Origin: Nitratireductor aquimarinus
GTDB taxonomy: Bacteria > Pseudomonadota > Alphaproteobacteria > Rhizobiales > Rhizobiaceae
Assembly (NCBI RefSeq): GCF_017255295.1
Contig: NZ_JAFKDE010000005.1
Span: 186,001 to 250,000, forward strand
Direction: 5' to 3'
Length of the DNA stretch: 64,000 nucleotides
In this document: in pieces, positions 727 through 14,550 of the stretch
How the letters are laid out: the number at the start of each line of letters is the position of its first letter
Position numbering within the stretch: position 1 is the first letter of the stretch
Translations under genes and position numbers: made by a program
The notes under the pieces: model-generated
The model's input: only the letters and a program-made list of their open reading frames with translations
The model's database searches: none
Told to the model about the DNA's origin: nothing

Positions 727-1686
727 TCAGGCCATGGCCAGGATGCTGCGCGCACTCTCTTCATCGGTGATGAAGACCGTTGGCTCAACCAGCTTCATTG
801 CGCCGATCAGCGCGTCGATCTTGTCTTCACCGCCGGAGGTTAAGATGCGCATGGGCGCGCGGCGCAGGCGATCGACATCGACGGACATGACCCGGTCATT
901 GATCGGGTGGTCAACCAGTTGACCGTCGAGATCGTAGAAGTGGTAGAGAATGTCGCCCACCGCGCCCTTTGCTTCGAGGTCAGAGCGCACCTCTTCGGTA
1001 AGATAGCCGCCGCGATAGAAGGTGGTGGCGGAAGCGAGCCCGCCGACGGACACGATGACCGCATCGAGCGTATCTGCGAGCGCCAGAATTTCATTCAGGC
1101 CGCAGCGCTCGATCAGCGCCGTCTTGGTTTCGACGCTGTCGACAACGGCGGGTGCGGGAATGAGATAGCCATCGCCCTGGAAGGCGCGCGCAAAGCGCCA
1201 GGCGAATTCAGCCGGGTTGAAGCGGCGGGCAACGCCGACACCGCCGAGAAGCGAGATCACTTTGAAGTCGGCCAGCGGCCGGGCGCGAATGAACGGGAGC
1301 GAGCCGAACAGCGTGCGCCCCCAGCCGACGCCCACCGACATGCCAGCGGCCATGACGTCGGACACATAGCTGCCGGTCGCGGCGCTGACGGCGGGAATGG
1401 GATCCGCCTCGGGATCGGAGAGCGGCGCGACCACGGCGCGCTCGAGGCCGAAGCGCTGCTCCAGCGCACGTTCGACCCGGGTGATCTCGGCCAGATCGCC
1501 CTCAATGGTGATTTTCACCTCATTGCGGGCGCGCGCATCGGCCAGCATGCGCACGACGCTGACACGCCCGATGCCGAGAATCTCGGCGATCTCGTTCTGC
1601 GTCTTCTGCTCGACGAAATACATCCAGGCGGCGCGGACACGCAGCCGGTCGGTTTTGCTGGTTACGCCTCCCTTGCGGGAAGTCAT
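727..1686 (-). CDS. SorC/DeoR-type sugar-binding transcriptional regulator
   Basis: Predicted repressor or activator of the SorC family, which sense phosphorylated sugars or polyols. The protein (319 aa from this start) has an N-terminal HTH at about residues 21-55 (WMYFVEQKTQNEIAEILGIG, RVSVVRML) and a C-terminal effector domain of the SorC sugar-binding fold (about 65-316; GVGWGRTLFGS, VISLLGGVG, ILTSGGEDKIDALIGAM). The start at 1686 is preceded by TGGAG at normal distance; an upstream ATG at 1746 also has a ribosome site and would add 20 residues. It is separated from the PTS operon only by a divergent unknown gene, so I infer it controls the polyol PTS and the DRL operon. Confidence 0.88.
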   Translation of the reverse strand: MTSRKGGVTSKTDRLRVRAAWMYFVEQKTQNEIAEILGIGRVSVVRMLADARARNEVKITIEGDLAEITRVERALEQRFGLERAVVAPLSDPEADPIPAVSAATGSYVSDVMAAGMSVGVGWGRTLFGSLPFIRARPLADFKVISLLGGVGVARRFNPAEFAWRFARAFQGDGYLIPAPAVVDSVETKTALIERCGLNEILALADTLDAVIVSVGGLASATTFYRGGYLTEEVRSDLEAKGAVGDILYHFYDLDGQLVDHPINDRVMSVDVDRLRRAPMRILTSGGEDKIDALIGAMKLVEPTVFITDEESARSILAMA

Positions 1687-1877
1687 TGCAATTTCTCCAG
1701 AACTGGTCGTACCGGCGGGCTGATTGTGTACCTTCGCCTTGCTCATATGGCCTTCCTGCGTATTTCCCCGGGGCGGTCACAAGCATGTCGCTTGATTTCC
1801 AGAGAGACCAAAACAATGATGTCGCCATCCGGTCAATGGCCGGCGGCAGAAAACTAATTACTTGAGGATAGCATTTT

Positions 1878-2639
1878 ATGCTTCGTGATGCCTCGGAAGA
1901 CATGGCGATTCATCTTAAGGACCGCCTGCGTGATATCCGCGATTTCCTGCGTGCGCATCGCCACGAAAAGCAGGGCGCGGCTTCGGAAAAGCGCGGTTTT
2001 ACAGACATCGAGAAGCTTCTGGGGCGGGCCGTCAGCATGGTCGACGACACGCTGACACTGGCCGAAACCGCCTCCCGCACAGTGCTGCCCGGCGGGCAAC
2101 AGCCCGAACTGGTCATAAGACCGCTGGTCGATTATTTCGGCGCCGACCCGATGGAAGGCGAGCGCGCGTTCCGGCGCCACATGTATCGCGCGGCAAAGGC
2201 GCTGACGGCCACGCTGGAAGACCGCGAGCCCCCGGCGATGCGCGAGACGGCCTTCACCGGAGCGCATGAGACGCTCCGCCAACGGCTGGGCCATGTGCTG
2301 CTGGCGCTGAAGAATGCGAAGACGCCCGAAGCCATAAGGCCGCTTCTGGCGGGCCTGCTCGCGCATCTGCTTCAGGAAATCTGCCGTAATGCGCTGAGCG
2401 ACCCGGCAATGCCTGCCGCAGCACAGAACGCCGAGACCTGCATCATCGTGTTTGCGCCGGGGCTTCTCGCCTCGGGACTGGCGCTGTTCGACGAAAGCCT
2501 TTCCGCATCCGACCTGCTGGACATCGCCACGCTGGCGGTTGCCGCACGCCGGGAGCGGATGGCGCGCAGCCTTGAGGCCGATCAGCCGATTGCCGACCTG
2601 ACGGCAATTTTCGAAAGCCTGCTCACGCATCTGCCCTAG
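1878..2639 (+). CDS. Conserved hypothetical protein, 253 aa
   Basis: I do not recognise this protein. It is soluble and mostly helical by composition, without signal peptide, membrane segment or obvious catalytic motif. The N-terminal third is charged (KDRLRDIRDFLRAHRHEKQ) and the C-terminal half is rich in Leu/Ala helices (IRPLLAGLLAHLLQEICRNAL). It is divergent from the SorC-type regulator (191 bp between start codons) and convergent with the HPr-EI gene. The TAG stop forms the first bases of a RIME-like palindrome. A role in the neighbouring polyol pathway is possible but there is no direct evidence. Confidence 0.7.
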   Translation: MLRDASEDMAIHLKDRLRDIRDFLRAHRHEKQGAASEKRGFTDIEKLLGRAVSMVDDTLTLAETASRTVLPGGQQPELVIRPLVDYFGADPMEGERAFRRHMYRAAKALTATLEDREPPAMRETAFTGAHETLRQRLGHVLLALKNAKTPEAIRPLLAGLLAHLLQEICRNALSDPAMPAAAQNAETCIIVFAPGLLASGLALFDESLSASDLLDIATLAVAARRERMARSLEADQPIADLTAIFESLLTHLP

Positions 2640-2742
2640 AGCGCTTCCGCTTTTCGTTGAAGCGCGAAAGCGCTCTCATTCATTGTTCTTACGCAATTTC
2701 GGACGGAAAACCGGTTCCCACTTTTCCTGGAGTTGCTCCAAG
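2637..2742. repeat. RIME-like two-part intergenic palindrome
   Basis: Same architecture as the element at 622-725: an AGAGCGCTTCCGCTTTTC...GAAAGCGCTCT palindrome (about 2638-2678) followed by the GCAATTTCGGACGG...CCTGGAGTTGC palindrome (about 2693-2738). It starts on the TAG stop codon of the upstream gene. Confidence 0.75.
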
Positions 2743-2747
2743 ATGGC

Positions 2748-2784
2748 AAAAGACCGGCCAACCGCATCTGCGACAGCCGGTCTT
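2748..2784 (-). terminator. Rho-independent terminator of the PTS operon
   Basis: Inverted repeat AAGACCGGC...GCCGGTCTTTT read on the minus strand, with a 17-nt loop and a short T run, 45 bp past the stop codon of the HPr-EI gene, the last gene of the operon. Confidence 0.65.
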
Positions 2785-2828
2785 CAAGTCTTCGATGGTC
2801 AGGGGAAGCGCACCTGACCGGAGCGCTG

Positions 2829-4811
2829 CTAGCCCGCCTTTTCGAACAGCTCGGAAAGCTGTTTCTTGGTGGCCTGCACCGAAGCCGGGCTCATGCTGAG
2901 CTCGGTCAGTCCCATGCGAATGAACTCGGGGATCAGATCGGTGCGCGCGGCGGCCTCGCCACACATGCCGATCTCGATGCCCGCCGCGACCGCTGCCCTG
3001 GCGGCCTGCTCGACCGCAGCCATGACGGCTGGATGGGCGGCGTCGTTCAGATTGGCAACTGACGGGTTCAGGCGGTCCGCCGCCATCACATACTGCGTCA
3101 GATCGTTGGTGCCGATGGAGAAGAAGGCGACCTCCTTCGCCAGCGCTTCCGCGCCGAAGACGGCAGCCGGCGTCTCGATCATCACGCCCAGCGGGAACGC
3201 GCCATGAGCAACGCCCTCGGCCTTCAGCTCGGCTGCGCATTCATCGATCAGCACGCGGGTGCGGCGCACCTCTTCAACGGTCGAGACCATGGGCAGCATC
3301 ACGCGCAGATTGCCATGAACGGCAGCGCGCAGCAGCGCCCGGAGCTGAACCTTGAAGATGTCGGTGCGGTCGAGGCACATGCGGATGCCGCGCCAGCCGA
3401 GGAAGGGGTTTTCCTCTTCCGGGAATTCAACGCCGGAGATCGGCTTGTCGCCGCCGATGTCGAGCGTGCGCACGATGACCGGGTGGTCCGGGAAAGCGCG
3501 GGCGAGCTCGGCATAGGTCTCCGCCTGCATGTCCTCGGACGGCAGGTGCATGTGCCGCATGAAAAGAAGCTCGGTGCGGAACAGGCCAACGCCCATTGCG
3601 CCGGCTTCCTGAGCGGCCTCGACCTCTTCGAGCGAGCCGAGATTGGCCGCCACCTGAATGACCGTGCCATCGGCGCGGCGCGGCACCACATCCTTGTAGA
3701 CCCTGAGCGCTTCCCGCTCGCGGGCGGCAGCGCCGATCATCTCTTCAAAGCGCGCACGGGTGGCCGCATCGGGTTCGACAACGACCTGTCCCGTGTGGCC
3801 GTCAATGGCGGCTTCCTTCGCGTCGCGCAGTTCGTTGACGGCCTCGCCGAGGCCGAGCACTGCGGGAATGCCATGGGTGCGGGCGATGATGGCCACATGC
3901 GATGTCGCGCCGCCATGACCACAGACCACGCCGCCAAGACGCTTGAGCGGCGCACGCGCCAGATCCCATGCGCCAATGTCCTCGGCGACGAGAATGGCCC
4001 CTTCGGGAATGTCGTCGAGGCGCGCATCTTCCTGACCGAGAAGCGTGAGGCAGATCTGGCGGGCAATGGCCTCCATATCCTCGGCGCGGGCAGCCATATA
4101 GGCGTCGTCCAGCTTGCGGAAATCATCGGCCAGGCGGGAGGATGCGGCGATGACGGCGGATACGGCGTCGAGACCGCCATCGATGGCGGCAAGCGTTTCG
4201 TCGCGCAGCGCATCATCGGAGGCGATGTCGCGCAGCGCCGCGACGATGCCGCGATCGCTTTCCTGCATGCCATCGGATGCAAGCGAACGGTCGAGTTTTT
4301 CCTGAAGACGCTGGATCGCTTCCGCGAAGCGCTGCTTTTCCGGCTCGATTTCGCCGGCGGAAAGCGTCGTGTTGTTGGGAACGATCTGCTGCGGGAAATG
4401 CGCGAAGACAGGACCGAGGCCAAGTCCGGCGCTGGCGGCAACACCATGAAGGCCGCCATCGGCGACCAGAGGCGCAGCCGGTGCGGCAGGCGCTGCGGGC
4501 GCAGGCGTCTCGGCGGCGGGCGCCTTTGCGGGCTCGCCCACGCCTTCCTCGACACCCGACATGGGGTTTTCAAGATAGGCGATGAGGGCATCGACGGCCT
4601 CAATGGCGTCGGCGCCATCGGCGCGAATGGAAACTTCGTCGTTTTCCTTCACACCAAGCAGCATCAGCTTCACCGAGCTCTTGGCGCTGACAGCCTTTTC
4701 GCCCTTGATAATTTCCACATCGCTTTCGAACCCCTTGGCGAGGCGCACGAAGCGTGTGGCGGGACGGGCATGCAGGCCATCCTGCACTCTGACGATGGTC
4801 GAGCGTTCCAT
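2829..4811 (-). CDS. ptsI: PTS HPr-enzyme I fusion protein (phosphoenolpyruvate-protein phosphotransferase)
   Basis: Carries out the first two steps of sugar PTS phosphorylation: PEP to enzyme I to HPr. The 660-aa protein starts with an HPr domain (1-88) with catalytic His14 in GLHARPATRF and Ser46 in KSSVKL, then an Ala/Pro linker (about 90-117) and a full enzyme I: N-terminal phosphohistidine domain with His305 in GGATSHVAIIAR, PEP-binding barrel (RTLDIGGDKP, SIGTNDLTQY) and Cys617 in MCGEAAA. It is the last gene of the operon behind the IIA gene (36 bp gap), so it is dedicated to this transporter. It differs from the nitrogen-PTS enzyme I (PtsP) of rhizobia, which has a GAF domain and no HPr. 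Confidence 0.95.
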   Translation of the reverse strand: MERSTIVRVQDGLHARPATRFVRLAKGFESDVEIIKGEKAVSAKSSVKLMLLGVKENDEVSIRADGADAIEAVDALIAYLENPMSGVEEGVGEPAKAPAAETPAPAAPAAPAAPLVADGGLHGVAASAGLGLGPVFAHFPQQIVPNNTTLSAGEIEPEKQRFAEAIQRLQEKLDRSLASDGMQESDRGIVAALRDIASDDALRDETLAAIDGGLDAVSAVIAASSRLADDFRKLDDAYMAARAEDMEAIARQICLTLLGQEDARLDDIPEGAILVAEDIGAWDLARAPLKRLGGVVCGHGGATSHVAIIARTHGIPAVLGLGEAVNELRDAKEAAIDGHTGQVVVEPDAATRARFEEMIGAAAREREALRVYKDVVPRRADGTVIQVAANLGSLEEVEAAQEAGAMGVGLFRTELLFMRHMHLPSEDMQAETYAELARAFPDHPVIVRTLDIGGDKPISGVEFPEEENPFLGWRGIRMCLDRTDIFKVQLRALLRAAVHGNLRVMLPMVSTVEEVRRTRVLIDECAAELKAEGVAHGAFPLGVMIETPAAVFGAEALAKEVAFFSIGTNDLTQYVMAADRLNPSVANLNDAAHPAVMAAVEQAARAAVAAGIEIGMCGEAAARTDLIPEFIRMGLTELSMSPASVQATKKQLSELFEKAG

Positions 4812-4847
4812 AACGGTCTCGTATCTGTTGTTCAGTTCGTTACGGCG

Positions 4848-5228
4848 TTATGCGCCGATGGTGATGACTGCATCCGTCTTCAGGGCCGCAACAAGCGTTG
4901 CCGGCTCGACGACGGAGGCGCAGATCTCGCCCGGACGCTCCACGGCGTTCGCGCCATTGAAGTTCACAACCACATGGCCGATCTCACGCACCTTGTTCCA
5001 GGCGGCTTCGCCCATGGCGGTGATTTCGGCGGTCACATCGCCCACGGTAACGCGGGCGCCAGCGGCCGGCGCGGCATCGGACGGACCTTCCTGCACCGCA
5101 TGCAGAACGGAAACCTCGGCAAGTTCCTCCGGCGCGCCGTCAGCGAAAAGAATCAGGACACCGCCTTCCGCCAGATCCGCGACTTCGGGACCGACTGCAG
5201 TAATACGCGTTTTGAGAAACACCGACAT
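4848..5228 (-). CDS. srlB: PTS glucitol/sorbitol-type transporter subunit IIA
   Basis: Cytoplasmic phosphocarrier that takes phosphate from HPr and passes it to IIB. It is 126 aa, close to the 123 aa of E. coli SrlB, with the same layout (TRITAVGPEVADL at the N-terminus, NKVREIGHVVVNFNG in the C-terminal half). His43 (SVLHAV) falls at the position of the phosphorylated histidine of E. coli SrlB as I recall it. It lies between the IIBC gene (71 bp) and the HPr-EI gene (36 bp). Confidence 0.92.
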   Translation of the reverse strand: MSVFLKTRITAVGPEVADLAEGGVLILFADGAPEELAEVSVLHAVQEGPSDAAPAAGARVTVGDVTAEITAMGEAAWNKVREIGHVVVNFNGANAVERPGEICASVVEPATLVAALKTDAVITIGA

Positions 5229-5299
5229 TCAAATAACTCCATGCAAACATTCGTTTCGGGAAGGGCGGCCGCCCAAACGACGACCGCCACCCCGTTGTT

Positions 5300-6298
5300 T
5301 TAAAGAACCAGCAGGCTGACGCCCCAGGCAATGGCCACGGAAACCGGGCCCATAACCTGACGGCTCAGAAGCACCGCAGGGACACCGATCTCAATGGTCT
5401 TGGGTTTCGCTTCGCCGAGGGCCAGGCCCACCGGAACGAAGTCACAGCCTACCTGCGTGTTGTAAGCGAACAGCGCAGGCAATGCCATGGCGGGTGAGAT
5501 CGTGCCATTGGCAATCTGCGGTCCGATGATCGCCACGCCGATCACCTGCGCGATGACCGCGCCTGGCCCGAGAATGGGCGACAGGAACGGCAGGCCGCAG
5601 ATGGCCGAGATGATGAGCAGGCCGATAATGTTGTTGGCCAGCGGTCCCATCGGCTCGGCGAGAATGTCACCGATGCCCGTGTAGAGGATCAGACCGATCA
5701 GCATGGTCACGAAGGCCATGAAGGGCAGCACGTTGCGCACCACCTGATCGATGGTGCGGCGACCGGCGTTGAAGAACACGCCAACCACATTGCCCATCAC
5801 GCGGCCGACGCTGCTGATGAGGCCGACGAGGCCGCCTTCCTCGGTGGCCGGCGCCGCAGCCGGAGCACTCTCCGGCTCTGAAGACGCGGCCGCGCCGCCA
5901 GCGACTGCGGCTGCTTCCGTGCCATCGGCCATCTCGATGTTCTCCGGCGAAACGCCCGAGACATAGATGTCCTCGGTGATGAACTGGGCAAGCGGGCCTG
6001 CCTGGCCGACCGGGGTCAGGTTGACGGTGGGAATGCGCTTGCGCGGGTAGACGCCGCAGCGGGCGGTGCCGCCGCAATCGACGACCACGACAGCCATCTC
6101 GCCTTCAACGGGCGGGCTCTTGAAACCGTCAACGGCTTCACCGCCCGTCATCTCTGCGATGCGCTTTGCGACGGGGTGGATGCCGCCGCCGGTGACCGAC
6201 ACGATCTTGTTGCGCTGGTCCGTCGGTTCGATCACGAGCGGACCGCCCCAACCAGACGAGCCCCTGGAGATCTTTACTGCTTTGTATGTTTTAGCCAT
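5300..6298 (-). CDS. srlE: PTS glucitol/sorbitol-type transporter subunit IIBC
   Basis: Membrane subunit with the IIB phosphotransfer domain and part of IIC. The N-terminal 120 residues match SrlE IIB (GSSGWGGPLVIEP, FITEDIYVSGVSPENIEM) with Cys75 in VVVDCGGTARCGVYPRKR, the expected phosphocysteine. An Ala/Glu-rich linker (about 128-155) leads to a C-terminal membrane domain with about four to five hydrophobic segments (VLPFMAFVTMLIGLILYTG, ILGPGAVIAQVIGVAIIG). Length 332 aa against about 319 for E. coli SrlE. It follows the IIC gene by 14 bp. Confidence 0.93.
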   Translation of the reverse strand: MAKTYKAVKISRGSSGWGGPLVIEPTDQRNKIVSVTGGGIHPVAKRIAEMTGGEAVDGFKSPPVEGEMAVVVVDCGGTARCGVYPRKRIPTVNLTPVGQAGPLAQFITEDIYVSGVSPENIEMADGTEAAAVAGGAAASSEPESAPAAAPATEEGGLVGLISSVGRVMGNVVGVFFNAGRRTIDQVVRNVLPFMAFVTMLIGLILYTGIGDILAEPMGPLANNIIGLLIISAICGLPFLSPILGPGAVIAQVIGVAIIGPQIANGTISPAMALPALFAYNTQVGCDFVPVGLALGEAKPKTIEIGVPAVLLSRQVMGPVSVAIAWGVSLLVL

Positions 6299-6312
6299 GT
6301 CCTGCGCCTCCC

Positions 6313-7071
6313 CTAGAGCTCAACGCCCTGGCGGCGCGCCAGGATGGCCGTGATCCGCTCGGTCAGCATGCCCTTGAGCAGGATGACGAGGAGACCGACC
6401 AGCGCGTACCAGATGGCCACGGTGATGTGATAGCCGATGGGAACGACGCCCTGGCTCTCAAGCTCGAGCAGAGCGACGAGAATGCCGCCCCAGACGAAGT
6501 ACTCACCCGGGTTGATATGCGGGAACAGGCCGAGCGGCGGGTGCACATAGGACACGGCGGCGTCGTAGAATGCCGGCTTGTGCTTTTCCTCAAGGAACGA
6601 GCCGAAGGTGTAGGCCATCGGGTTCGTGAGGAAGAAGACGGCGAGAACCGGAAGCACCGTGTAGCGCGTGAGCGCGATGCGGCCGGCGCTCTGGGCAAGG
6701 CCGTGAACGCGCTTCTCGCCCACCAGTTCGGTGATGGCGTAGAAGGCGGTCATCAGCACGACCAGCGTCGGGATGATGCCGGTGACGAAGCCAGCAAAGA
6801 CCTCGCCGCCCTTCTGGAAGATGCCGATGAAGTACTTGCCGGCGGCGGTGAGCCAGCCGAGCTGCTCTTCCTGGGCAACCGAGTCCAGCTTCTGCCGGAA
6901 CTCTTCGACCGAAAGGTCGGTGCCTGCCTGAGCAAGCACGACCAGATCGTTTGTCGCCGCCTTGGCGGCGAGTTTGCCGTGCAGTGCGGCATCACCCGCC
7001 ACCGCGCCGGCCATATGCAGCCCCTGCATCGCCGTATCGGCGTGCTGGGCCATCATGGAAATGACAGACAT
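6313..7071 (-). CDS. srlA: PTS glucitol/sorbitol-type transporter subunit IIC with N-terminal extension
   Basis: Integral membrane subunit (IIC2) that forms the translocation path. The region from about residue 75 matches E. coli SrlA (YFIGIFQKGGEVFAGFVTGI, FLTNPMAYTFGSFLEEKHKP, GLFPHINPGEYFVWGG). At 252 aa it is about 65-70 residues longer than the 187-aa enterobacterial SrlA: an extra N-terminal segment (HADTAMQGLHMAGAVAGDAA, AAKAATNDLVVLAQAG) has no counterpart I know of. An ATG inside the gene near the classical start could be an alternative, but the upstream ATG at 7071 has a purine-rich ribosome site. First EII gene after gutM. Confidence 0.92.
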   Translation of the reverse strand: MSVISMMAQHADTAMQGLHMAGAVAGDAALHGKLAAKAATNDLVVLAQAGTDLSVEEFRQKLDSVAQEEQLGWLTAAGKYFIGIFQKGGEVFAGFVTGIIPTLVVLMTAFYAITELVGEKRVHGLAQSAGRIALTRYTVLPVLAVFFLTNPMAYTFGSFLEEKHKPAFYDAAVSYVHPPLGLFPHINPGEYFVWGGILVALLELESQGVVPIGYHITVAIWYALVGLLVILLKGMLTERITAILARRQGVEL

Positions 7072-7135
7072 AGTCCTCCCTCTCTATTCTGCTCACCCCG
7101 GTAATTGAGCCCCGGTGAGCGCGCAGTCCCGTATG

Positions 7136-7573
7136 TCATGCTTTTGAAGCGGCCAGAGATTCCCGAAGCGGCGGCTCCTCGCCTGCCCGCGTACGGTCTA
7201 TCTGAGCAACCGCCTGCGTAATTGCCGCGGTCAGCCCCGGCTGCTTTTCTCCGAAAAGCGCCGGTTCGGCCCGCAACTGATCAAGGGTCATGCCCTCGAA
7301 CTGCTCATGTCGCTTGAATTTTGCGAAGACGGAGCGGCCACTCATGGTCAGGATCCGGCGCACGACGAGATCCGGCGAAACCACGACGATGGCAATTGCA
7401 CCGCGTTTCAGGAAACGGCCGTGAAATGCGCCCGTGCCGACGAAACCATCCGCATATTTCTGCGTGATGCCTTTAAAGACGTCGGAATAGTGACGCATCT
7501 GCAGCCACACGCCGTAGGACTGTAGCGCCCATACGACTGCGAGGAGCAAAAGCCCCCATTGCCATAGTGCCAT
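7136..7573 (-). CDS. gutM: GutM-type glucitol operon activator
   Basis: First gene of the PTS operon. The 145-aa protein starts with a hydrophobic segment (LWQWGLLLLAVVWALQSYGV) followed by the GutM core (YSDVFKGITQKYADGFVGTG, GAIAIVVVSPDLVVRRILTMSGRSVFAKF). In E. coli GutM is an activator of the glucitol operon whose mechanism is poorly understood. Membrane association and linkage to srlAEB support the assignment. The C-terminal 30 residues are charged and variable. Confidence 0.9.
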   Translation of the reverse strand: MALWQWGLLLLAVVWALQSYGVWLQMRHYSDVFKGITQKYADGFVGTGAFHGRFLKRGAIAIVVVSPDLVVRRILTMSGRSVFAKFKRHEQFEGMTLDQLRAEPALFGEKQPGLTAAITQAVAQIDRTRAGEEPPLRESLAASKA

Positions 7574-7643
7574 CAGGCATTACCTCCCGAAACGCTCTTC
7601 CCAAGCGTACGCACGTCAACACACTTAATAATCCTGAAATTAA

Positions 7644-7666
7644 GAACATTTGTTTTTTGAAATGTC
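7644..7666 (-). promoter_or_regulatory. Candidate operator upstream of the PTS operon
   Basis: Inverted repeat with arms ACATTT and AAATGT (7646-7651 and 7660-7665), 71-93 bp upstream of gutM, in an AT-rich stretch unlike the surrounding sequence. On the minus strand it contains AAACAAATGTTC, which matches 11 of 12 bases of an element upstream of the DRL operon (14258-14269). A SorC-type regulator is the likely binder; this is inference. Confidence 0.4.
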
Positions 7667-7758
7667 AAATTGTATATTCCTTCAAATACGTGGATCGCGG
7701 CTTATTTGATTGGAACCGACATGCCGCATGTTATGGTTCCGGCTAAGGAGTTCACCCG

Positions 7759-8406
7759 TTGGATCTGGATTTCAAGAACGAACTTGCAGTCATGCCCGAT
7801 TTACGCCACCGGCTGCGCCAGTTGCGCTGGTTTCGCACGACCTTTCGCGGCAATGCGAAGGCTGTGACGCAGCATTACGGTGTCGTGTTCGAGGTGGATG
7901 AGGAGAAGCTCACCCGCGTCTTTCTCGACTGGGTGGAGATGGTCGATGCGCAGAAGGCCTATGCCCGGCTCGACCGTGGCGATTTCATCATCTATGCCGC
8001 CGGCCTCGCGCTGAAGGAGATGATCCGCCATGCGCCGGTCACGGTGACGCCGGAAAGCACGGTGACGGGCGACGCAGAGAATGCGGAGATCGTCAAATTC
8101 TGGCCAGAGGGCTTTCTCTACACGAACTACTGCGTGTGCGCGATTGCCGCCATCTTCGAGCAGGAATTCGGCGAAGCGCCGCGTCTGGCCCGCTGTGCGG
8201 ACGATCTGCGGACCTGGTGGTCCTACCGCGAGAACACGCGCGAGATGCCGGCCTCGGCCGTCGCCTTCCTCGACCGTTTCCTTGGTGCGGAGCCCAACTG
8301 GGTTGCGCCCGATCTCGTGGAAGGGCGGATCGCCATGCGCAACGCCATCGAAGCCGGGCGCAAGAGCATCGAAGCGCCCTCGATCTTCCCTGACCCGGCG
8401 AGCTAG
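7759..8406 (+). CDS. Conserved hypothetical protein, 215 aa (TTG start)
   Basis: Unrecognised soluble protein. The TTG at 7759 is chosen because AAGGAG lies 8 bases upstream; an internal ATG at 7792 has no ribosome site. Visible features are a basic N-terminal segment (LRHRLRQLRWFRTTFRG) and a central aromatic, cysteine-containing stretch (WPEGFLYTNYCVCAIAAIFE); no known catalytic motif stands out. It is divergent from gutM (185 bp between starts) and is followed by a HAD phosphatase on the same strand, so it may be expressed together with the polyol genes. Confidence 0.8.
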   Translation: MDLDFKNELAVMPDLRHRLRQLRWFRTTFRGNAKAVTQHYGVVFEVDEEKLTRVFLDWVEMVDAQKAYARLDRGDFIIYAAGLALKEMIRHAPVTVTPESTVTGDAENAEIVKFWPEGFLYTNYCVCAIAAIFEQEFGEAPRLARCADDLRTWWSYRENTREMPASAVAFLDRFLGAEPNWVAPDLVEGRIAMRNAIEAGRKSIEAPSIFPDPAS

Positions 8407-8509
8407 GTCGCCGGGTGTTTTCAACTGACGAAAAAATGCCCTAAAGGGCGGCATTCATTCGCCACGTTGAAACGCAGCCTCCCCCTCAGCCCGAAAGTCC
8501 GGAGTTTTC

Positions 8510-9196
8510 ATGACTACCCCCCTGATCATATTCGATTGCGACGGTGTTCTCGTCGACAGTGAACCGCTTGCCGCAATCGCCTATGAGCGCGTTTACAACA
8601 AGCATGGTCTGGCGCTGAAGCGCGAGATCGTCGGCCAGTGCATCGGCATGAAGCAGGCCGACATCATTACCCGCATCGAAGAGCTGACCGGCTTTGCCTT
8701 CCCCGCCCATGCGGATGGCGACATCTGGCTGGAGACGAAGGCGCTGCTGGAAGAAGAACTTCAGCCGACGCGCGGCATCGTGCCTTTCCTGAGCAATCTG
8801 AAGACGCCGCGCTGCGTCGCTTCCTCATCCTCCATGGAGCGGATTGAGCTCAGCCTCGGGGTCTCCGGCATTGCCGATTTCTTCGGCGACGACGTGTTCA
8901 GCACCTCGATGGTGAAGAACGGCAAGCCTGCCCCGGACATCTTCCTGTTCGCTGCGGAGAAGCTCGGCGGCGCTCCGGCCTCCTCCGTGGTGATCGAGGA
9001 CTCGCCCTTCGGCGTGCAGGGGGCCGTGGCGGCCGGCATGACCGCCATCGGCTTCACCGGCGGCAGCCACACATTCGACGGCCATGGCGAGAAGCTCAGC
9101 GGCGCGGGCGCACACGCGGTCTGCGCAAGCTGGGATGAGATCGAAGCGGAACTCCGGCAACGCGGCTTCATCGGCGAAGCGGTGGCGGGCGCTTAA
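8510..9196 (+). CDS. HAD-superfamily phosphatase (phosphoglycolate/sugar-phosphate phosphatase-like)
   Basis: Haloacid dehalogenase hydrolase, probably acting on a small phosphorylated sugar or polyol. The 228-aa protein has motif I IFDCDGVLVDSE (nucleophile Asp9, acid/base Asp11), a helical cap (about 16-80), motif II CVASSSSMERI, Lys in KNGKPAPDIF and motif IV VVIEDSPFGVQGAVAAG. It sits between the two polyol operons in the opposite orientation, which suggests a side function such as removing a dead-end phosphate ester; the substrate cannot be read from sequence. Starts with ATG 103 bp after the preceding gene. Confidence 0.88.
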   Translation: MTTPLIIFDCDGVLVDSEPLAAIAYERVYNKHGLALKREIVGQCIGMKQADIITRIEELTGFAFPAHADGDIWLETKALLEEELQPTRGIVPFLSNLKTPRCVASSSSMERIELSLGVSGIADFFGDDVFSTSMVKNGKPAPDIFLFAAEKLGGAPASSVVIEDSPFGVQGAVAAGMTAIGFTGGSHTFDGHGEKLSGAGAHAVCASWDEIEAELRQRGFIGEAVAGA

Positions 9197-9242
9197 GGCC
9201 ACTCCGCTTTTCCGGAGCTGCCTGCTTCCGGGCAAAAGAAAA

Positions 9243-9273
9243 GGCGCTGCCTGTGATGATGGCAGGCAGCGCC
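9243..9273. terminator. Bidirectional hairpin between convergent genes
   Basis: Perfect 11-bp stem GGCGCTGCCTG/CAGGCAGCGCC with a 9-nt loop, located between the HAD gene and the E2 gene, which converge. No long T run on either strand, so termination strength is uncertain. Confidence 0.55.
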
Positions 9274-9411
9274 AGACGCGGTCAAAGTCGTTTTCGGTAT
9301 TCTTCAGGCGGTGCGCCGTTTCATGAGAACGGCGGTCCGCCTTTCTTTTTGGTGGGCTTCCCCGGTGGCGAGCCCCCAAGCCGACCGGGAAAGCCTGTCC
9401 GGAAATTCCGG

Positions 9412-10737
9412 TCAGACGAGCATCGCCATCGGGTTTTCGATGACCTGCTTGAAGGCGGCGAGGAGTTCTGCGCCAAGCGCGCCATCGACAGCACGGTGGT
9501 CGGTCGAAAGCGTGACCGACATCACGGTCGCCACCTTCACTTCGCCATCCTTCACCACGGCCCGCTGTTCACCTGCGCCGACCGCAAGGATCGTCGCATG
9601 CGGCGGGTTGATGACGGCGGCGAAGTCCTTGATGCCGAACATGCCCAGATTGGACACGGCCGTGTTGCCGCCCTGGAACTCTTCCGTCTTCAGCTTGCGC
9701 GAACGCGCCCGCGCGGCCAGATCCTTCATCTCGTTGGAGATGGCCGACAGCGTCTTCTCGTCGGCGCGGCGCACGATCGGCGTGATCAGACCGCCGGGGA
9801 TCGACACGGCAACGCCCACATCGGCGTTTTTGTGCTTCACCATGGCGTTCTCGGTCCACGACACATTTGCGTCCGGCACCATGGCCAGCGCCTTCGCGTG
9901 GGCCTTGATGACCATGTCGTTGACCGACAGCTTGTAAGCCGGCTTCTCGCCATCCCCGGCCTTCACCTTCGGCGCGGCATCATTGAGCTGCTTGCGCAGC
10001 GCCAGAAGCGCGTCGATCTCGCAATCGAGCGTCAGGTAGAAATGCGGGATGGTGGACTTGGCCTCGACCAGACGACGGGCGATGGTCTTGCGCATGCTGT
10101 CGTGCGGGATGAGCTCGTAGGAGCCTTCCTCGAACAGTTTCAGCACCTGATCGTCGGACATGGCCTGCGGCGCGGACGCAGCGGCGGAAGCTGCTTCAGC
10201 CGGCGCGGCTGCTACGGCTGCCTTCGCACCGCCATCCTTGCCGGCGGCTTCCACATCGGCCTTGACGATCCGGCCCTTCGGCCCCGAACCGGCGATGGCG
10301 GACAGGTCGAGACCCGCTTCCTTCGCCAGACGGCGGGCGAGCGGAGAAGCGCGGACGCCGGAGGATGCTTCCGCAGTCGCTGCCGGAGCAGCGGCGACGG
10401 GTGCGGCGGCCTCGACAGGGGCCGGCGCTTCCGCCTTTGCAGGCGCTTCGGCTGCGGTTTCGGCGGGCGCAGAAGCCGGCGCATCGGCCACGGCCTCGCC
10501 TTCTTCATAGATCCACGCCACAACCTGACCGACCGGAATGTCGATGCCTTCCTTGCCGGTGATGTTGCGCACGATGCCGGCGGCAGGAGAATCGATCTCC
10601 ATGGCCGCCTTGTCGGTCTCGATCTCGAACAGAAGATCGCCCTTCTTCACGGTCGCGCCTTCCTCGACAAGCCAGGAAGAAATGCGGCCGGTCGACATGT
10701 CCATGTCGACCTTGGGCAGGATGACTTCAACAGCCAT
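9412..10737 (-). CDS. Dihydrolipoamide acyltransferase (E2) of acetoin/2-oxoacid dehydrogenase-like complex
   Basis: Transfers the acyl group from the E1-bound intermediate to CoA. The 441-aa protein has one lipoyl domain (1-78; lipoyl-lysine Lys43 in EIETDKAAMEI), an Ala/Pro/Glu linker (about 80-128), a peripheral subunit-binding domain (about 130-168; ASPLARRLAKEAGLDLSAI) and a catalytic domain ending in DHRAVDGALGAELL (His414, Asp418). It begins one base after the E1-beta stop, so the two are co-transcribed. No E3 (dihydrolipoamide dehydrogenase) gene follows; E3 must come from elsewhere. Confidence 0.93.
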   Translation of the reverse strand: MAVEVILPKVDMDMSTGRISSWLVEEGATVKKGDLLFEIETDKAAMEIDSPAAGIVRNITGKEGIDIPVGQVVAWIYEEGEAVADAPASAPAETAAEAPAKAEAPAPVEAAAPVAAAPAATAEASSGVRASPLARRLAKEAGLDLSAIAGSGPKGRIVKADVEAAGKDGGAKAAVAAAPAEAASAAASAPQAMSDDQVLKLFEEGSYELIPHDSMRKTIARRLVEAKSTIPHFYLTLDCEIDALLALRKQLNDAAPKVKAGDGEKPAYKLSVNDMVIKAHAKALAMVPDANVSWTENAMVKHKNADVGVAVSIPGGLITPIVRRADEKTLSAISNEMKDLAARARSRKLKTEEFQGGNTAVSNLGMFGIKDFAAVINPPHATILAVGAGEQRAVVKDGEVKVATVMSVTLSTDHRAVDGALGAELLAAFKQVIENPMAMLV

Positions 10738-10738
10738 G

Positions 10739-11749
10739 TCAGCGCGCTCCCGTAACCAGATCGCGGGCCGCCTTGACGATGCCGTCGACCTGCGGAACCG
10801 TCGCCTTTTCCAGCTCCGGATTGTAGGGGATCGGCGTTTCCGCGCCGCCCAGACGGACGACCGGTGCGTCGAGATAATCGAAGGCCTCGCTCTCGGCGAT
10901 CATCGCCGAAATCTCTGCGCCGACGCCGAGCGTCTTAACGCCCTCATAGACGCACATCAGGCGGGACGTCTTGCACACGCTGTCGATGATCGTCTGGCGA
11001 TCCATCGGGCGGATGCTGCGCAGGTCGATGACCTCGACGTCGATGCCTTCTTCGGCAAGCTGCTTTGCAGCGTCCAGCGACTTGTGCACCATGATCGACG
11101 TGGCGACGATGGTGAGATCAGCGCCCTCGCGACGAACGGCAGCCTTGCCAATCGGCACGGTGTAATAGCCTTCCGGCACTTCGCCCTTCATCTTGTAGAG
11201 GAGCTTGTGCTCGTAGATCATCACCGGATCGGGATCCTCGATGGCCGCAAGCAGCATGCCCTTCACATCGTGCGGGGTGGACGGCTGGATGACCTTCAGG
11301 CCGGGCACATGGCCGAGCCACGCTTCGAGGCTCTGGCTATGCTGCGCGGCAGCGCCCGTGCCGGAACCGGCCGGGAAACGCATGACGACCGGCACCGAAA
11401 CGGCGCCGCCCAGCATGTAGCGCATCTTGGCGGCCTGGTTGACGATCTGCTCCATGGCGAGCGTCGCGAAATCGGAGAACTGGAACTCGAAGATCGGACG
11501 CATGCCGGTCACGGCTGCACCGACTGCGACGCCAGCGCCGCCCAGCTCCGAGATCGGCGTGTCCATCACGCGCTCGGGGCCGAAGCGTTCCACCAGATCG
11601 CCGGTGACCTGGAATGCGCCACCATAGACGCCGATGTCCTCGCCCATGAGGAACACGCGCTCATCGCGCTCCATGGCAATGGCCATGGCTTCCTGGATGG
11701 CCTGCGCGTAGCTCAGTTCACGCGTGGCTGTCTCGACTTGCGCGTCCAT
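10739..11749 (-). CDS. TPP-dependent dehydrogenase E1 component, beta subunit
   Basis: Beta subunit of an E1 of the pyruvate/acetoin dehydrogenase type (336 aa). Motifs: [70 protein letters not shown] and a C-terminal transketolase domain ([31 protein letters not shown]). It lacks the N-terminal lipoyl domain carried by the housekeeping pyruvate dehydrogenase E1-beta of rhizobia, which argues for an acetoin-dehydrogenase-like complex. It overlaps the alpha-subunit gene by one base. Confidence 0.93.
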
Positions 11750-12783
11750 CAGGCCTGCTCCGTGTAGACGTATTTCTCAAGATTGGCGACTTCGGGCATC
11801 GGGCTTTCCTTGGCGAACTCGATGCCTGCTTCGATTTCCTTGCGGACCCCTTCGCGGATCGCTTCGATCCCGGCGGCGTCGATGACGCCGAACTCGACGA
11901 GTTCTGCCTCGAACGCCTCAATGGGATCACGCTCGGTCATCCACTCCTCGATCTCTTCCTTGGTGCGGTAGCGATTGCGGTCGCTCTTGGAGTGGCCGCG
12001 ATAGCGATAGGTCTTGCACTCGATGAGCGTCGGTCCCTCGCCATTGCGTGCGCGCTCGGTCGCCTCGTGCATGGCCTCGGCCACATCCGACACGACATTG
12101 CCATTCACGATCACGCCCGGCATCGCATAGGCGGCGGCGCGGTCGGCAATGTTAGGCACCGCCGTCGCGCGGGCAACGGAGGTGGACATGCCGTAGCCAT
12201 TGTTCTCGCAGACGAAGACGACCGGGAGCTTCCAGATGGCGGCCATGTTGAGCGCCTCGTGGAACGCGCCCTCATTGTTTGCGCCGTCGCCGAAGAAGCA
12301 GACAACGACATTGCCGGTCTTCATCTTCTTGGCGGTCAGGGCAGCGCCAACGGCAATCGGGAGACCGCCGCCGACAATGCCGTTTGCGCCGAGGTTGCCC
12401 GTCGACACATCGGCGATGTGCATGGAGCCGCCACGGCCACGGCAATAGCCGGTGGTCTTGCCGAAGAACTCGGCGAACATGCGCGAGACGTCCGCACCCT
12501 TGGCGATGCAGTGGCCGTGGCCACGGTGGGTGGAGGTGATCTGGTCTTCATCAGAAAGGCCGAGGCAGATGCCGACAGCGCTTGCTTCCTGTCCGATGGA
12601 CAGATGCATCGTGCCGTGGATCAGGCCACGCATGTAGCTTTCTTCTGCGCCTTCCTCGAACTGGCGGATCAGATACATCTTGCGCAGCGCATCGCGCAGC
12701 TTTTCCTGATCGAACTGCCTGTAGATGAAAGGCTGGTTGGCGCCATCGGTTTTCGAGGCGCTCTTTTTGGCCGTGGCCGACAT
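11749..12783 (-). CDS. TPP-dependent dehydrogenase E1 component, alpha subunit
   Basis: Alpha subunit (344 aa) that binds thiamine pyrophosphate. The TPP/Mg motif is visible as [18 protein letters not shown] followed by FVCENN about 30 residues on; other family signatures are [41 protein letters not shown] and the phosphorylation-loop-like [15 protein letters not shown]. It sits between the DRL-type oxidoreductase gene and the E1-beta gene; the 111-bp gap upstream holds a RIME-like palindrome. Acetoin-dehydrogenase-like function, cleaving an alpha-hydroxyketone, is inferred from context; a 2-oxoacid substrate is the alternative. Confidence 0.93.
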
Positions 12784-12800
12784 TTTTACGCTCCTGTCTA

Positions 12801-12896
12801 GAGCATCGGACCGAAAAGCGGGAACCGGCTTCCGGTCCGATGTTCCATCAATAAATCAGATCGTCCGTGTGCGCCCGGACGGGCGCATGGCGATCT
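12801..12896. repeat. RIME-like two-part intergenic palindrome
   Basis: First palindrome GAGCATCGGACCGAAAAG...GGTCCGATGTTCC (12801-12846), second AGATCGTCCGTGTGCGCC...GGGCGCATGGCGATCT (about 12858-12896). It separates the DRL-type oxidoreductase gene from the E1-alpha gene and its right end contains part of the TAG stop codon of the former. Close copies occur at 21113-21213 and 17489-17584. Confidence 0.8.
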
Positions 12897-14211
12897 AGCC
12901 GTAAACGAGCTTGTCCTGACGCGCGCGCAGCTCGGCGATCTTGGAACCGGCCGGCGGGGCAGCGTTGTCGGACGTGATCAGTTCACCCTTCTTGATGGGC
13001 TTGGTGACCGTGCCGCCCTGAAGCAGACCGCAGGGGATGGCCCTGGAGGCGCGGGCCTCGGGCACCGTCATGATCCATGCGCGGTAGCAATATTCACCAA
13101 TCGCATCGAGCGTCTCGCCCGGCTGCATGTCCTTCTTGGCGACGGCGCAGACTTCCGCAACCGGCTTGTCCAGCGGCACCATGTCCGGCTTGCCGTAGAG
13201 AACGACGCGGGCGCAGGTGAGCGGCACTTCAAGCGAGGTGAGGTGATAGGGACGGTGGAAGGTGAAGTAAGGGCCCTTGCCCATCTTCAGGTCTTCCATG
13301 CGCTCCGAAATGCGCGGATGCGACATGTCGGCGACAACGAAGACGCCGGGCGCCACGCCCTTGCCGATGGAGTAATCCACCACGCCAACGCGCGACAGCA
13401 CACCGCCATCCTTTTCCGGCACCAGTACGGAGGACAGCTCGTCCAGCGTCGCCTTGGGGCCATGCATGCCCGGCTTGTCCGGCACGAGACCGGTGGCGTT
13501 GGCGATGGCCGCCATCTCGACCATGGTCTTGGAACCATCGACGAACTCGACCAGCATGCGCACATTCATGTTTCGGCGCGCTGCTTCCTCGGCGTAGTCG
13601 TCCGGGATCGCATCGATGTTGAGCGGGTTGTTCTTGCCCTTGCCGGCGGCGACGATGGGATGCCCCATGGCCGAAACGAACTCGATCAGCTCCATGCAGG
13701 AGGACGGCTCGTCGCCAGCGCCCAGCGAATAGGTAACGCCCAGGCGGTCGGCTTCGCTCTTCAGATAAGCGCCGATGGTGACATCAGCCTCGACATTCAT
13801 CATGACGAGGTGCTTGCCGTGCTCCATGGCCCGGAGGCCGATTTCAGCACCGACAGCGGGAACACCGGTCGCGTCGATCACGACGTCGATGAGATCGTTC
13901 TCGAGAAGCAGATCGGCATTGTTGGTGACGGCAACTTTGCCGGCTTCCATCGCCGCGGTCATTGCGGATTGCGTGTCCGCTTCCTTGGCGTGCCCTTCTT
14001 CCTGATAGGCGATATCCACGGCACGGCTTGCCGCAGGCAGGTTCAGCTCCGAAATGGCGCCGATTTCAATGCCGGGCATATGTGCGACGCGGGTGACGAT
14101 ATCGGTACCCATTTCGCCCGACCCCACAAGGCCGATGCGGATCGGCTTGCCGGATTTGGCCCGATCCTCGAGATCCCGGGCAAGGCCGGTAAGCGCAACG
14201 TTGGCAGACAT
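12895..14211 (-). CDS. DRL-family NAD(P)-dependent oxidoreductase (DXP reductoisomerase-like, COG4091) with C-terminal SAF domain
   Basis: Member of COG4091, long called 'homoserine dehydrogenase-like'. The family includes Brucella DRL, which interconverts 1-deoxy-D-xylulose 5-phosphate and 2-C-methyl-D-erythritol 4-phosphate. The 438-aa protein has a Rossmann motif (IRIGLVGSGEMGTDIVTRV, residues 23-41), a catalytic core (LGAGDEPSSCMELIEFVSAM, AAGKGKNNPLNIDAIPDDY) and a C-terminal SAF domain (about 360-430; GGTVTKPIKKGELITSDN). It is the first gene of an operon with E1-alpha, E1-beta and E2. Other COG4091 members may use different substrates, so the reaction is not fixed by sequence alone; the operon favours a catabolic role. 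Confidence 0.85.
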   Translation of the reverse strand: MSANVALTGLARDLEDRAKSGKPIRIGLVGSGEMGTDIVTRVAHMPGIEIGAISELNLPAASRAVDIAYQEEGHAKEADTQSAMTAAMEAGKVAVTNNADLLLENDLIDVVIDATGVPAVGAEIGLRAMEHGKHLVMMNVEADVTIGAYLKSEADRLGVTYSLGAGDEPSSCMELIEFVSAMGHPIVAAGKGKNNPLNIDAIPDDYAEEAARRNMNVRMLVEFVDGSKTMVEMAAIANATGLVPDKPGMHGPKATLDELSSVLVPEKDGGVLSRVGVVDYSIGKGVAPGVFVVADMSHPRISERMEDLKMGKGPYFTFHRPYHLTSLEVPLTCARVVLYGKPDMVPLDKPVAEVCAVAKKDMQPGETLDAIGEYCYRAWIMTVPEARASRAIPCGLLQGGTVTKPIKKGELITSDNAAPPAGSKIAELRARQDKLVYG

Positions 14212-14550
14212 TTCTGACCACTCTCCCAGATGGCGTTTCCTCAGATTGAGGCTTATTGAACATATGTTTAGGTGTCAATACGAATGTCCATTGACGCGAC
14301 AACAACGCCCTGCTCTCCCCAGAACCGTCAGCAGCAAAAGCCCGCACAGCAGACATGACGCTAGGGAAAGAGAAAATCGTAACATTCCAGCTTTTGTGAA
14401 CGCTCTGTTTCAGTTTTCCGATCTGAACGAACGCAAATGGGCTCCCTAAATGAAGAGCCAGCCAGGGAAGACGCCTCGGCTTCGAAGTAATAACACACTT
14501 CCCTGACGGAAATGTGAAACGCTTGTTGATAGCTAACTGGAGTAATGAAA
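14212..14550. promoter_or_regulatory. Divergent intergenic region with candidate operators
   Basis: 339 bp without a gene between the DRL operon and the small secreted protein gene. Near the DRL start it is AT-rich and holds two candidate sites: 14258-14269, whose minus strand reads AAACATATGTTC and matches 11/12 bases of the site upstream of gutM, and an inverted repeat GTCAAT-10 nt-ATTGAC at 14274-14295. The remainder (14300-14530) shows nothing I can name. Confidence 0.4.

Follow-up and report, generated by a model that had tools for sequence, protein, structure and literature searches.

The genome of Nitratireductor aquimarinus raises the question of why a rhizobial-type bacterium carries a complete, sugar-transporting phosphotransferase system (PTS) with its own HPr-enzyme I (HPr-EI) fusion, and which substrate such a system serves. 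The module lies at 2829-7573 of the 64,000-nucleotide stretch that was analyzed (positions 186,001 to 250,000 of contig NZ_JAFKDE010000005.1; hereafter the window). The PTS is real, complete, and self-sufficient, and its interest lies in a partner operon that the first-pass annotation had not noticed. This second operon, upstream of the first and on the same strand, encodes, in this order, a deoxyxylulose-phosphate reductoisomerase-like enzyme (DXR-II) and E1-alpha, E1-beta, and E2 subunits of the type found in pyruvate dehydrogenase (PDH) and acetoin dehydrogenase. The PTS module is one half of a larger regulon. As judged from gene content and linkage, the region 2829-14211 quite probably constitutes a single regulon, governed by a SorC-type regulator, for the catabolism of 2-C-methyl-D-erythritol (ME).

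All proteins of the PTS module exceed the Pfam gathering scores, including the Gut-family IIC, IIBC, and IIA domains (EIIBC-GUT_N 241.3 bits, EII-GUT 210 bits). In the fusion, HPr is followed by the N-terminal, mobile, and phosphoenolpyruvate (PEP)-binding domains of EI (PTS-HPr 86.8, PEP-utilisers_N 68.1, PEP-utilizers 67.7, PEP-utilizers_C 345.2 bits). The conserved residues reported earlier for this protein are all present, with His14 in the motif LHARP, His305 in GGATSH, and Cys617 in GMCGE, besides Ser46. Coordinates and Pfam domains thus agree with the complete Gut-type PTS of the first-pass annotation, and HPr-EI, IIA, IIBC, and IIC are encoded together, as its view of a self-sufficient module implied. 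The "five phosphocarrier/permease parts in one operon" hold as five PTS functions, but these are distributed over only four genes; the fifth gene, GutM, encodes neither a phosphocarrier nor a permease.

The genome assembly (4.57 Mb, 28 contigs, 99.99% complete) contains three PEP-utilizer matches (open frames of 909, 672, and 764 amino acids), one of which is the window fusion; from length and similarity, the 909- and 764-residue frames appear to be PPDK and PtsP, respectively. One HPr domain was found besides that of the fusion. A larger ordinary PTS, which had been named as the finding that would overturn the earlier view, was ruled out within the families searched: PTS_EIIC had no match in the genome (EIIC families outside PTS_EIIC, e.g., mannose and galactitol, were not searched), and besides the fusion only a single HPr and a single EI-like protein were found. 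The module has EI and HPr domains in common with the nitrogen PTS (PtsP-NPr) of rhizobia and Brucella. According to the accessible text of PMC2937029, the Brucella nitrogen PTS has no permease, and the window module is a separate, complete PTS. Control by an HPr kinase through Ser46, as suggested before, is possible because the search for hprK found one HPr-kinase-like gene, which scores barely above the cut-off (33.4 versus 33.3 bits).

In a draw of 297 genomes of the family, 42 matched EIIBC-GUT_N, 40 of them strongly (G110 and G181 were weak and left out of the strong set). The rarity assumed earlier was borne out in a class-wide draw, in which the module occurred in one of 385 genomes, namely that of the window itself; searches anchored on DXR-II located it in a few others, e.g., Paracoccus. 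In all 38 PTS stretches (from the 40 strong genomes, with the window and G170 excluded; several are cut by contig ends), the genes for IIC, IIA, GutM, HPr-EI, and the SorC-type regulator lie beside IIBC. Since the module is conserved across family genomes in this way, it is not a chance assembly. The easy horizontal spread that had been proposed is plausible because the same cluster was found on plasmids, but a recent transfer left no signal in composition (59-65% GC per gene, 62.8% for the window).

The name "glucitol/sorbitol PTS" is probably wrong for this system. Among the NCBIfam glucitol models, the cut-offs of NF049924 and NF049923 are exceeded, and the scores for TIGR00849, NF007696, TIGR00825, and TIGR00821 are below theirs. 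Neither a sorbitol-6-phosphate dehydrogenase nor another polyol-phosphate dehydrogenase was detected in Pfam and NCBIfam searches of the 13 genes of 727-14211, and the lack of the former among them rules out a bona fide sorbitol operon. The glucitol (srl) PTS operon of Escherichia coli, whose composition is general background, has the IIC, IIBC, IIA, and GutM families in common with the window. Unlike srl, the window system includes its own HPr-EI fusion and a SorC-type regulator, together with DXR-II and E1/E2 in place of a sorbitol-6-phosphate dehydrogenase.

Both operons are preceded by a common element, AACAWATGTTC, which has two matches in the 64 kb (0.01 expected; Table 1). Upstream of GutM, this candidate operator is exact in 28 of the 38 loci and has at most one mismatch in 36. 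All 18 other PTS-linked DXR-II genes carry it with two mismatches or fewer; about 3% of simple shuffles, a control that covers the PTS-linked set only, reach two. The best site upstream of the genome's own stand-alone DXR-II gene has four mismatches. No enrichment was observed upstream of the regulator (1/38 with at most two mismatches) or HPr-EI (0/38). Upstream of E1-alpha, the element occurs in two of 24 loci (L071 and L077), where no DXR-II gene precedes; there it stands directly before E1-alpha with one mismatch, as expected for a moved promoter. In loci from genome contigs (either strand, within 250 bases), at most two mismatches were counted in 15/16 PTS-type, 18/19 kinase-type, 20/20 E1-only, and 5/25 solo DXR-II loci, one of these five being a linked gene cut by a contig end. 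Because the element is common to the PTS-, kinase-, and E1-only types, it follows the catabolic core irrespective of the importer. It is the predicted operator of the SorC-type regulator, which probably binds it and regulates both operons; the regulator scores 182 bits against the NCBIfam DeoR model and 119.8 bits against LsrR, both under the cut-off. As the PTS has its operator in common with the DXR-II/E1/E2 operon and travels with it, it most likely supplies a single dedicated pathway rather than general polyol use.

The DXR-II of the operon aligns without gaps to the Brucella enzyme (PDB 3UPL/3UPY) over residues 1-435 and has G121, K191, K193, T229, H250, R320, and V351. In the part of the 2013 survey of this family that was available (PMC3847144), G121, T229, H250, R320, and V351 separate DXR-II from DLO1 and DLO2, and the signature positions checked here either make this distinction or anchor fosmidomycin. 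Pfam family, full-length alignment, and all signature residues checked agree with known DXR-II (DRL) proteins; by family and signature residues the gene product is a full DXR-II, for which conversion of 1-deoxy-D-xylulose 5-phosphate (DXP) to 2-C-methyl-D-erythritol phosphate (MEP) is predicted. Whereas known DXR-II is a biosynthetic enzyme, the window copy is a second one, inside a PTS/E1/E2 regulon. A DXR-II 98% identical to it is present in Nitratireductor sp. pb3. GcpE of the MEP pathway is present in the genome, and DXR-I had no match (the profile matched 10 of 14 control genomes). Two DRL_cat genes were found, which are 74% identical and each encode the DXR-II residues; the second lies among unrelated genes for an AsnC-type regulator, a P5CR-like protein, and an HSP70-like protein. 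Since this stand-alone copy can make isoprenoids, the operon copy is free for catabolism. DXR-I was detected in one of the 40 strong PTS genomes. Genome G186 has DXR-I, and it possesses no DRL_cat gene other than the DXR-II of its PTS operon. More than one DRL_cat gene occurs in 28 of the 40 strong PTS genomes and in 48 of 257 others, counts that include DLO relatives and genomes that are not independent.

The E1/E2 complex was ruled out as the housekeeping PDH, which is encoded on contig 3 and has E1 subunits only 40.1% (alpha) and 48.8% (beta) identical to those of the operon. E1-alpha falls under the PDH cut-offs, narrowly for TIGR03182 (385.4 versus 393.85 bits) and widely for TIGR03181 (256.3 versus 411.35). 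Five aco-type proteins show 45-50% identity to E1-alpha and 44-49% to E1-beta. In the trees of 19 (alpha) and 20 (beta) hand-picked rows, in which aco-type labels were taken from neighboring genes, the DXR-II-linked E1-alpha rows form one group (99/98) apart from PDH and from the five aco-type rows, which form their own (99/98). The DXR-II-linked E1-beta group includes Priestia (89/83, bootstrap not settled). The complex has E1-alpha, E1-beta, and E2 in common with acetoin dehydrogenase (acoABC), and its E1-alpha is nearer to aco than to its own PDH. Unlike acoABC, it groups separately in both trees, is linked to DXR-II, and has neither an AcoX-like NAD kinase nor a sigma-54 regulator among the 13 window genes searched. 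By its E1-alpha, it may be regarded as acetoin-dehydrogenase-like. Unlike the E1 subunits, the operon E2 is 83.3% identical to the E2 of the housekeeping PDH; apparently, it is a recruited copy that replaced an earlier one. As lpdA and lipA were not seen among the window operon genes, the complex must use the common E3. Kinase-type clusters (L085 19793-22301, L086 19770-22215) carry their own lpdA and lipA. The nearest outside row to the window E1 comes from a Clostridioides difficile plasmid (L178 3043-8963), on which genes for a SorC-type regulator, E1-alpha, E1-beta, E2, and E3 lie downstream of an MFS transporter gene in a stretch that contains no DXR-II; this cluster perhaps serves another 1-deoxy-ketose.

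Linkage of the two operons is conserved. Among the 38 PTS stretches, DXR-II is present in 23, E1-alpha in 25, E1-beta in 23, E2 in 28, and any of the four in 30, in varying arrangements (L045 and L057 have the enzyme genes downstream, whereas L061 and L080 have them inverted). The DXR-II/E1/E2 core recurs in Rhizobiaceae, in Paracoccaceae, and on one Bacillota plasmid. In contexts anchored on DXR-II (the best 80 of 250 confirmed loci), it is accompanied by the Gut PTS or by a PfkB kinase, the latter mostly with an ABC importer; the kinase label includes L104, with a PfkB match of only 29%, and L145, with an ABC binding protein alone. Two Paracoccus loci (L135 and L136) hold both modules, and a Priestia plasmid combines the core with an MFS transporter and an FGGY kinase. 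ABC importer and PfkB kinase occur with the core on Agrobacterium pAtCFBP7129b, S. meliloti pRM41A, and S. fredii pNGR234b. S. fredii NGR234 is in the DXR-II table of the 2013 survey, and its DXR-II lies within an ABC/PfkB/E1/E2/E3 cluster. PTS and HPr-EI occur with the core on plasmids of Terrarubrum, Rhizobium sp. L51/94, Paracoccus versutus, and N. thuwali. A glycerol-3-phosphate dehydrogenase/oxidase and a dehydrogenase recur near some ABC/PfkB clusters (L085 23929-25626, L086 23741-25411).

The best DXR-II tree requires at least five changes between PTS and kinase, or four without L135 (L135 and L136 were labeled PTS). The tree was built quickly, some of its branches are weak, and it covers 57 of the 107 DXR-II rows or the same loci; merging of identical rows had reduced 110 to 107. 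If the intermediate is phosphorylated, a kinase standing in for a PTS is to be expected. DXR-II directly adjoins a Gut PTS in Listeria, Enterococcus raffinosus, and Ligilactobacillus salivarius, and neither HPr-EI nor E1 was seen there within 9 kb; the evidence from Bacillota, which possess general PTS proteins, consists of five loci from four species in the plasmid collection (L081-L084, L089). Not every DXR-II gene is so accompanied: 27 of the 107 rows have neither PTS nor E1 in view (three truncated, one DLO-type).

MEP is the product of DXR-II and DXP its substrate, and DXP has the CH3-CO-CHOH group that acetoin dehydrogenase cleaves. In the proposed pathway, the PTS would import ME and phosphorylate it to MEP. 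The operon DXR-II would then oxidize and rearrange MEP to DXP, the reverse of the known reaction, perhaps with NAD+. E1-alpha, E1-beta, and E2 with the common E3 would finally cleave DXP to acetyl-CoA and glyceraldehyde 3-phosphate, as acetoin dehydrogenase cleaves acetoin, and this cleavage would pull the oxidation of MEP. ME is the most economical substrate because known chemistry then joins PTS or kinase, DXR-II, and E1/E2 without a gap. The family membership of the parts is firm. From the gene content, active-site residues, common operator, conserved linkage, and change of importer, we infer the substrate, the direction of the reaction, the coenzyme, the cleavage products, and the binding of the regulator to the operator; the pathway is a strong and testable proposal.

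Several observations weigh against this proposal. Eight of the 38 PTS stretches lack all four enzyme genes; in three of them the contig carries a DRL_cat gene some 13 kb off, a fourth runs into a contig end, and the remaining four are unexplained. L071 and L077 have the PTS and E1/E2 with no DXR-II in the stretch. No E1 was found within 9 kb in the Listeria and Enterococcus loci. On a plasmid of Phyllobacterium sp. T1293 (L173 3324-10317), a DXR-II 88% identical to that of the window adjoins genes for an ABC-type sugar importer and for an aldose epimerase, with no kinase or E1, an arrangement that is unexplained. E1-beta is no closer to aco-type proteins than to its own PDH, so the designation acetoin-dehydrogenase-like derives solely from E1-alpha. 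Ten PTS genomes, some fragmented at the PTS operon, have one DRL_cat gene and no DXR-I. In three (G018, G067, and G226) the operon copy is the sole DRL_cat gene and must also serve biosynthesis; in G096 no DRL_cat gene was counted, the operon DXR-II being cut at the contig start.

The coenzyme belongs here, too. Residue 55 of DXR-II is the position after the second beta strand at which an acid is usual in NAD-type enzymes. Asp or Glu occupies it in 80 of 80 operon-linked and 11 of 24 solo enzymes (the latter including the genome's own stand-alone copy and the DLO-type L088, and excluding three truncated loci, all acidic). In contrast to the linked enzymes, the stand-alone Brucella/Ochrobactrum proteins have Ala at this residue, followed by Arg-Arg; the region reads Ser-Ala-Arg-Arg in three such genes and Ser-Thr-Arg-Arg in six of Mesorhizobium. 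A preference for NAD was not accepted on this basis, since only five independent pairs are available and the sign test is non-significant; it remains a hint.

The PTS may instead import another branched polyol, e.g., apiitol, the hydroxymethyl analogue of ME, which a relative of DXR-II would convert to a ketopentose 5-phosphate for central metabolism. The Gut family of the PTS implies only "polyol", and in L. salivarius, fsa and tkt, common neighbors of ketopentose phosphate use, lie beside DXR-II and the PTS, a further point that fits less well with ME. However, the residue set of the window enzyme is that of DXR-II, and the E1/E2 genes of Alphaproteobacteria and Priestia suit a 1-deoxy-2-ketose, which releases an acetyl group, whereas cleavage of xylulose 5-phosphate would yield a glycolyl group. 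We consider this explanation improbable. Equally improbable is that DXR-II makes isoprenoids and just happens to lie next to a sorbitol PTS of the ordinary kind and to a second complex of the PDH or acetoin type. It would account for the ten genomes just mentioned, which have no DXR candidate other than one DRL_cat gene, and for the two NCBIfam glucitol models (IIBC and IIC) whose cut-offs are exceeded. It is contradicted by the second DXR-II of this genome and the DXR-I of G186, by the same association in Bacillota and the change of importers around the DXR-II/E1/E2 core, and by the operator common to both operons and the lack of a sorbitol-6-phosphate dehydrogenase among the genes searched. 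Salvage, in which imported and phosphorylated 1-deoxy-D-xylulose or ME tops up DXP or MEP for isoprenoids, thiamin, and pyridoxal, would use a PTS or kinase that yields these compounds directly and would suit the Listeria and Enterococcus loci without E1, but it is very unlikely, as the linked E1/E2, present in most uncut alphaproteobacterial clusters, would be useless in it.

DXR-II may have been ancestrally a catabolic MEP dehydrogenase/isomerase of ME-consuming bacteria, from which the biosynthetic Brucella-type enzyme was recruited, later allowing the loss of DXR-I. We advance this only tentatively. In the DXR-II tree, branches of the Bacillota and Terrarubrum types are taken up by catabolic clusters, and the solo genes of Brucella type are nested among such clusters. 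However, the root depends on one very long DLO outgroup, and the main catabolic group of Alphaproteobacteria diverges only after the solo genes of Nitratireductor and Mesorhizobium.

The accessible part of the 2013 survey (PMC3847144) reports 53 DXR-II proteins, 11 of them active by complementation, and some strains with both DXR-I and DXR-II. An active DXR-II was described there from Finegoldia, in whose genome no other MEP pathway genes and no mevalonate (MVA) pathway genes were found, and another from Chloroflexus, which has the MVA pathway only; both were counted in favor of ME catabolism. The same text raises the question of how a redundant enzyme arose and persisted, and offers dosage and fosmidomycin tolerance as answers. 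As far as the available portions of the survey and of a 2026 review (PMC13001223) go, the scattered distribution of DXR-II is left unexplained, and the review lists both Dxr types as fosmidomycin targets. Among the listed matches from open-licence literature, judged by title or the start of the abstract, none dealt with ME catabolism or a catabolic DXR-II, and the exact phrase was unmatched. The gene set looks like a previously unrecognized route for consuming ME. If so, it would give a reason for the scattered and often redundant occurrence of DXR-II, kept without obvious need. It would also correct the labels "glucitol/sorbitol PTS", "pyruvate dehydrogenase", and "homoserine dehydrogenase" on such clusters, including that of Listeria, and would bear on how fosmidomycin sensitivity is read.

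Table 1. Genes and predicted operator sites of the proposed regulon (positions in the window)
Feature	Position	Strand	Basis
SorC/DeoR-type sugar-binding transcriptional regulator	727..1746	-	Sugar-bind PF04198 181.7 bits; in 38/38 PTS loci
Conserved protein, function not assigned	1878..2639	+	no Pfam/NCBIfam match; in 32/38 PTS loci
HPr-enzyme I fusion, 660 aa	2829..4811	-	Pfam domains; His14, Ser46, His305, Cys617; in 38/38 PTS loci
PTS IIA, Gut family	4848..5228	-	PF03829 (PTSIIA_gutA) 92.1 bits; TIGR00849 71.3 bits, below cut-off 189.55
PTS IIBC, Gut family	5300..6298	-	PF03612 and PF07663; NF049924 448.5 bits, above cut-off 400; CGGTARCG motif from residue 75
PTS IIC, Gut family	6313..7071	-	PF03608 210 bits; NF049923 187.1, above cut-off 150
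GutM-like protein, first gene of PTS operon	7136..7573	-	PF06923 75.2 bits
Predicted operator AACAAATGTTC before PTS operon (GutM)	7644..7654	-	match to AACAWATGTTC
Conserved all-alpha protein	7759..8406	+	no Pfam/NCBIfam match; in 35/38 PTS loci, also in kinase-type loci
HAD-family hydrolase, perhaps sugar-phosphate phosphatase	8510..9196	+	NF007854 109.2 bits, below cut-off 211; in 25/38 PTS loci
E2 dihydrolipoamide acyltransferase	9412..10737	-	TIGR01349 481.6, above cut-off 445
E1-beta, PDH/acetoin-dehydrogenase-type	10739..11749	-	NF006667 407.3, above cut-off 321; tree
E1-alpha, PDH/acetoin-dehydrogenase-type	11749..12783	-	PF00676 307.8 bits; tree
DXR-II (DRL), deoxyxylulose-phosphate reductoisomerase-like; proposed direction MEP to DXP	12895..14211	-	PF21135 DRL_cat 229.9 bits
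Predicted operator AACATATGTTC before DXR-II/E1/E2 operon	14258..14268	-	second match to AACAWATGTTC

Three further genes accompany the two operons. The protein encoded convergently to HPr-EI (1878-2639) shows mostly low identity among the loci that have it. For the all-alpha protein encoded at 7759-8406, the invariant residues in 28 aligned rows include W58, W115, E117, C125, W153, E158, N159, and W181. Its AlphaFold model has a pLDDT of 90.2, and the nearest structure is a Doc fold (VIA-align Z 8.9 over 117 residues, rmsd 2.9 Å), a value in the range common for helical models; the best Foldseek match (E 1.3) is weak. A gene for a HAD-family protein, as found in the window cluster, also lies just upstream of the stand-alone DXR-II gene, on the opposite strand, in Brucella rhizosphaerae and Ochrobactrum loci (L138, L140, and L144, about 9000-11300), and because of this correspondence, it may be a remnant of a catabolic cluster.

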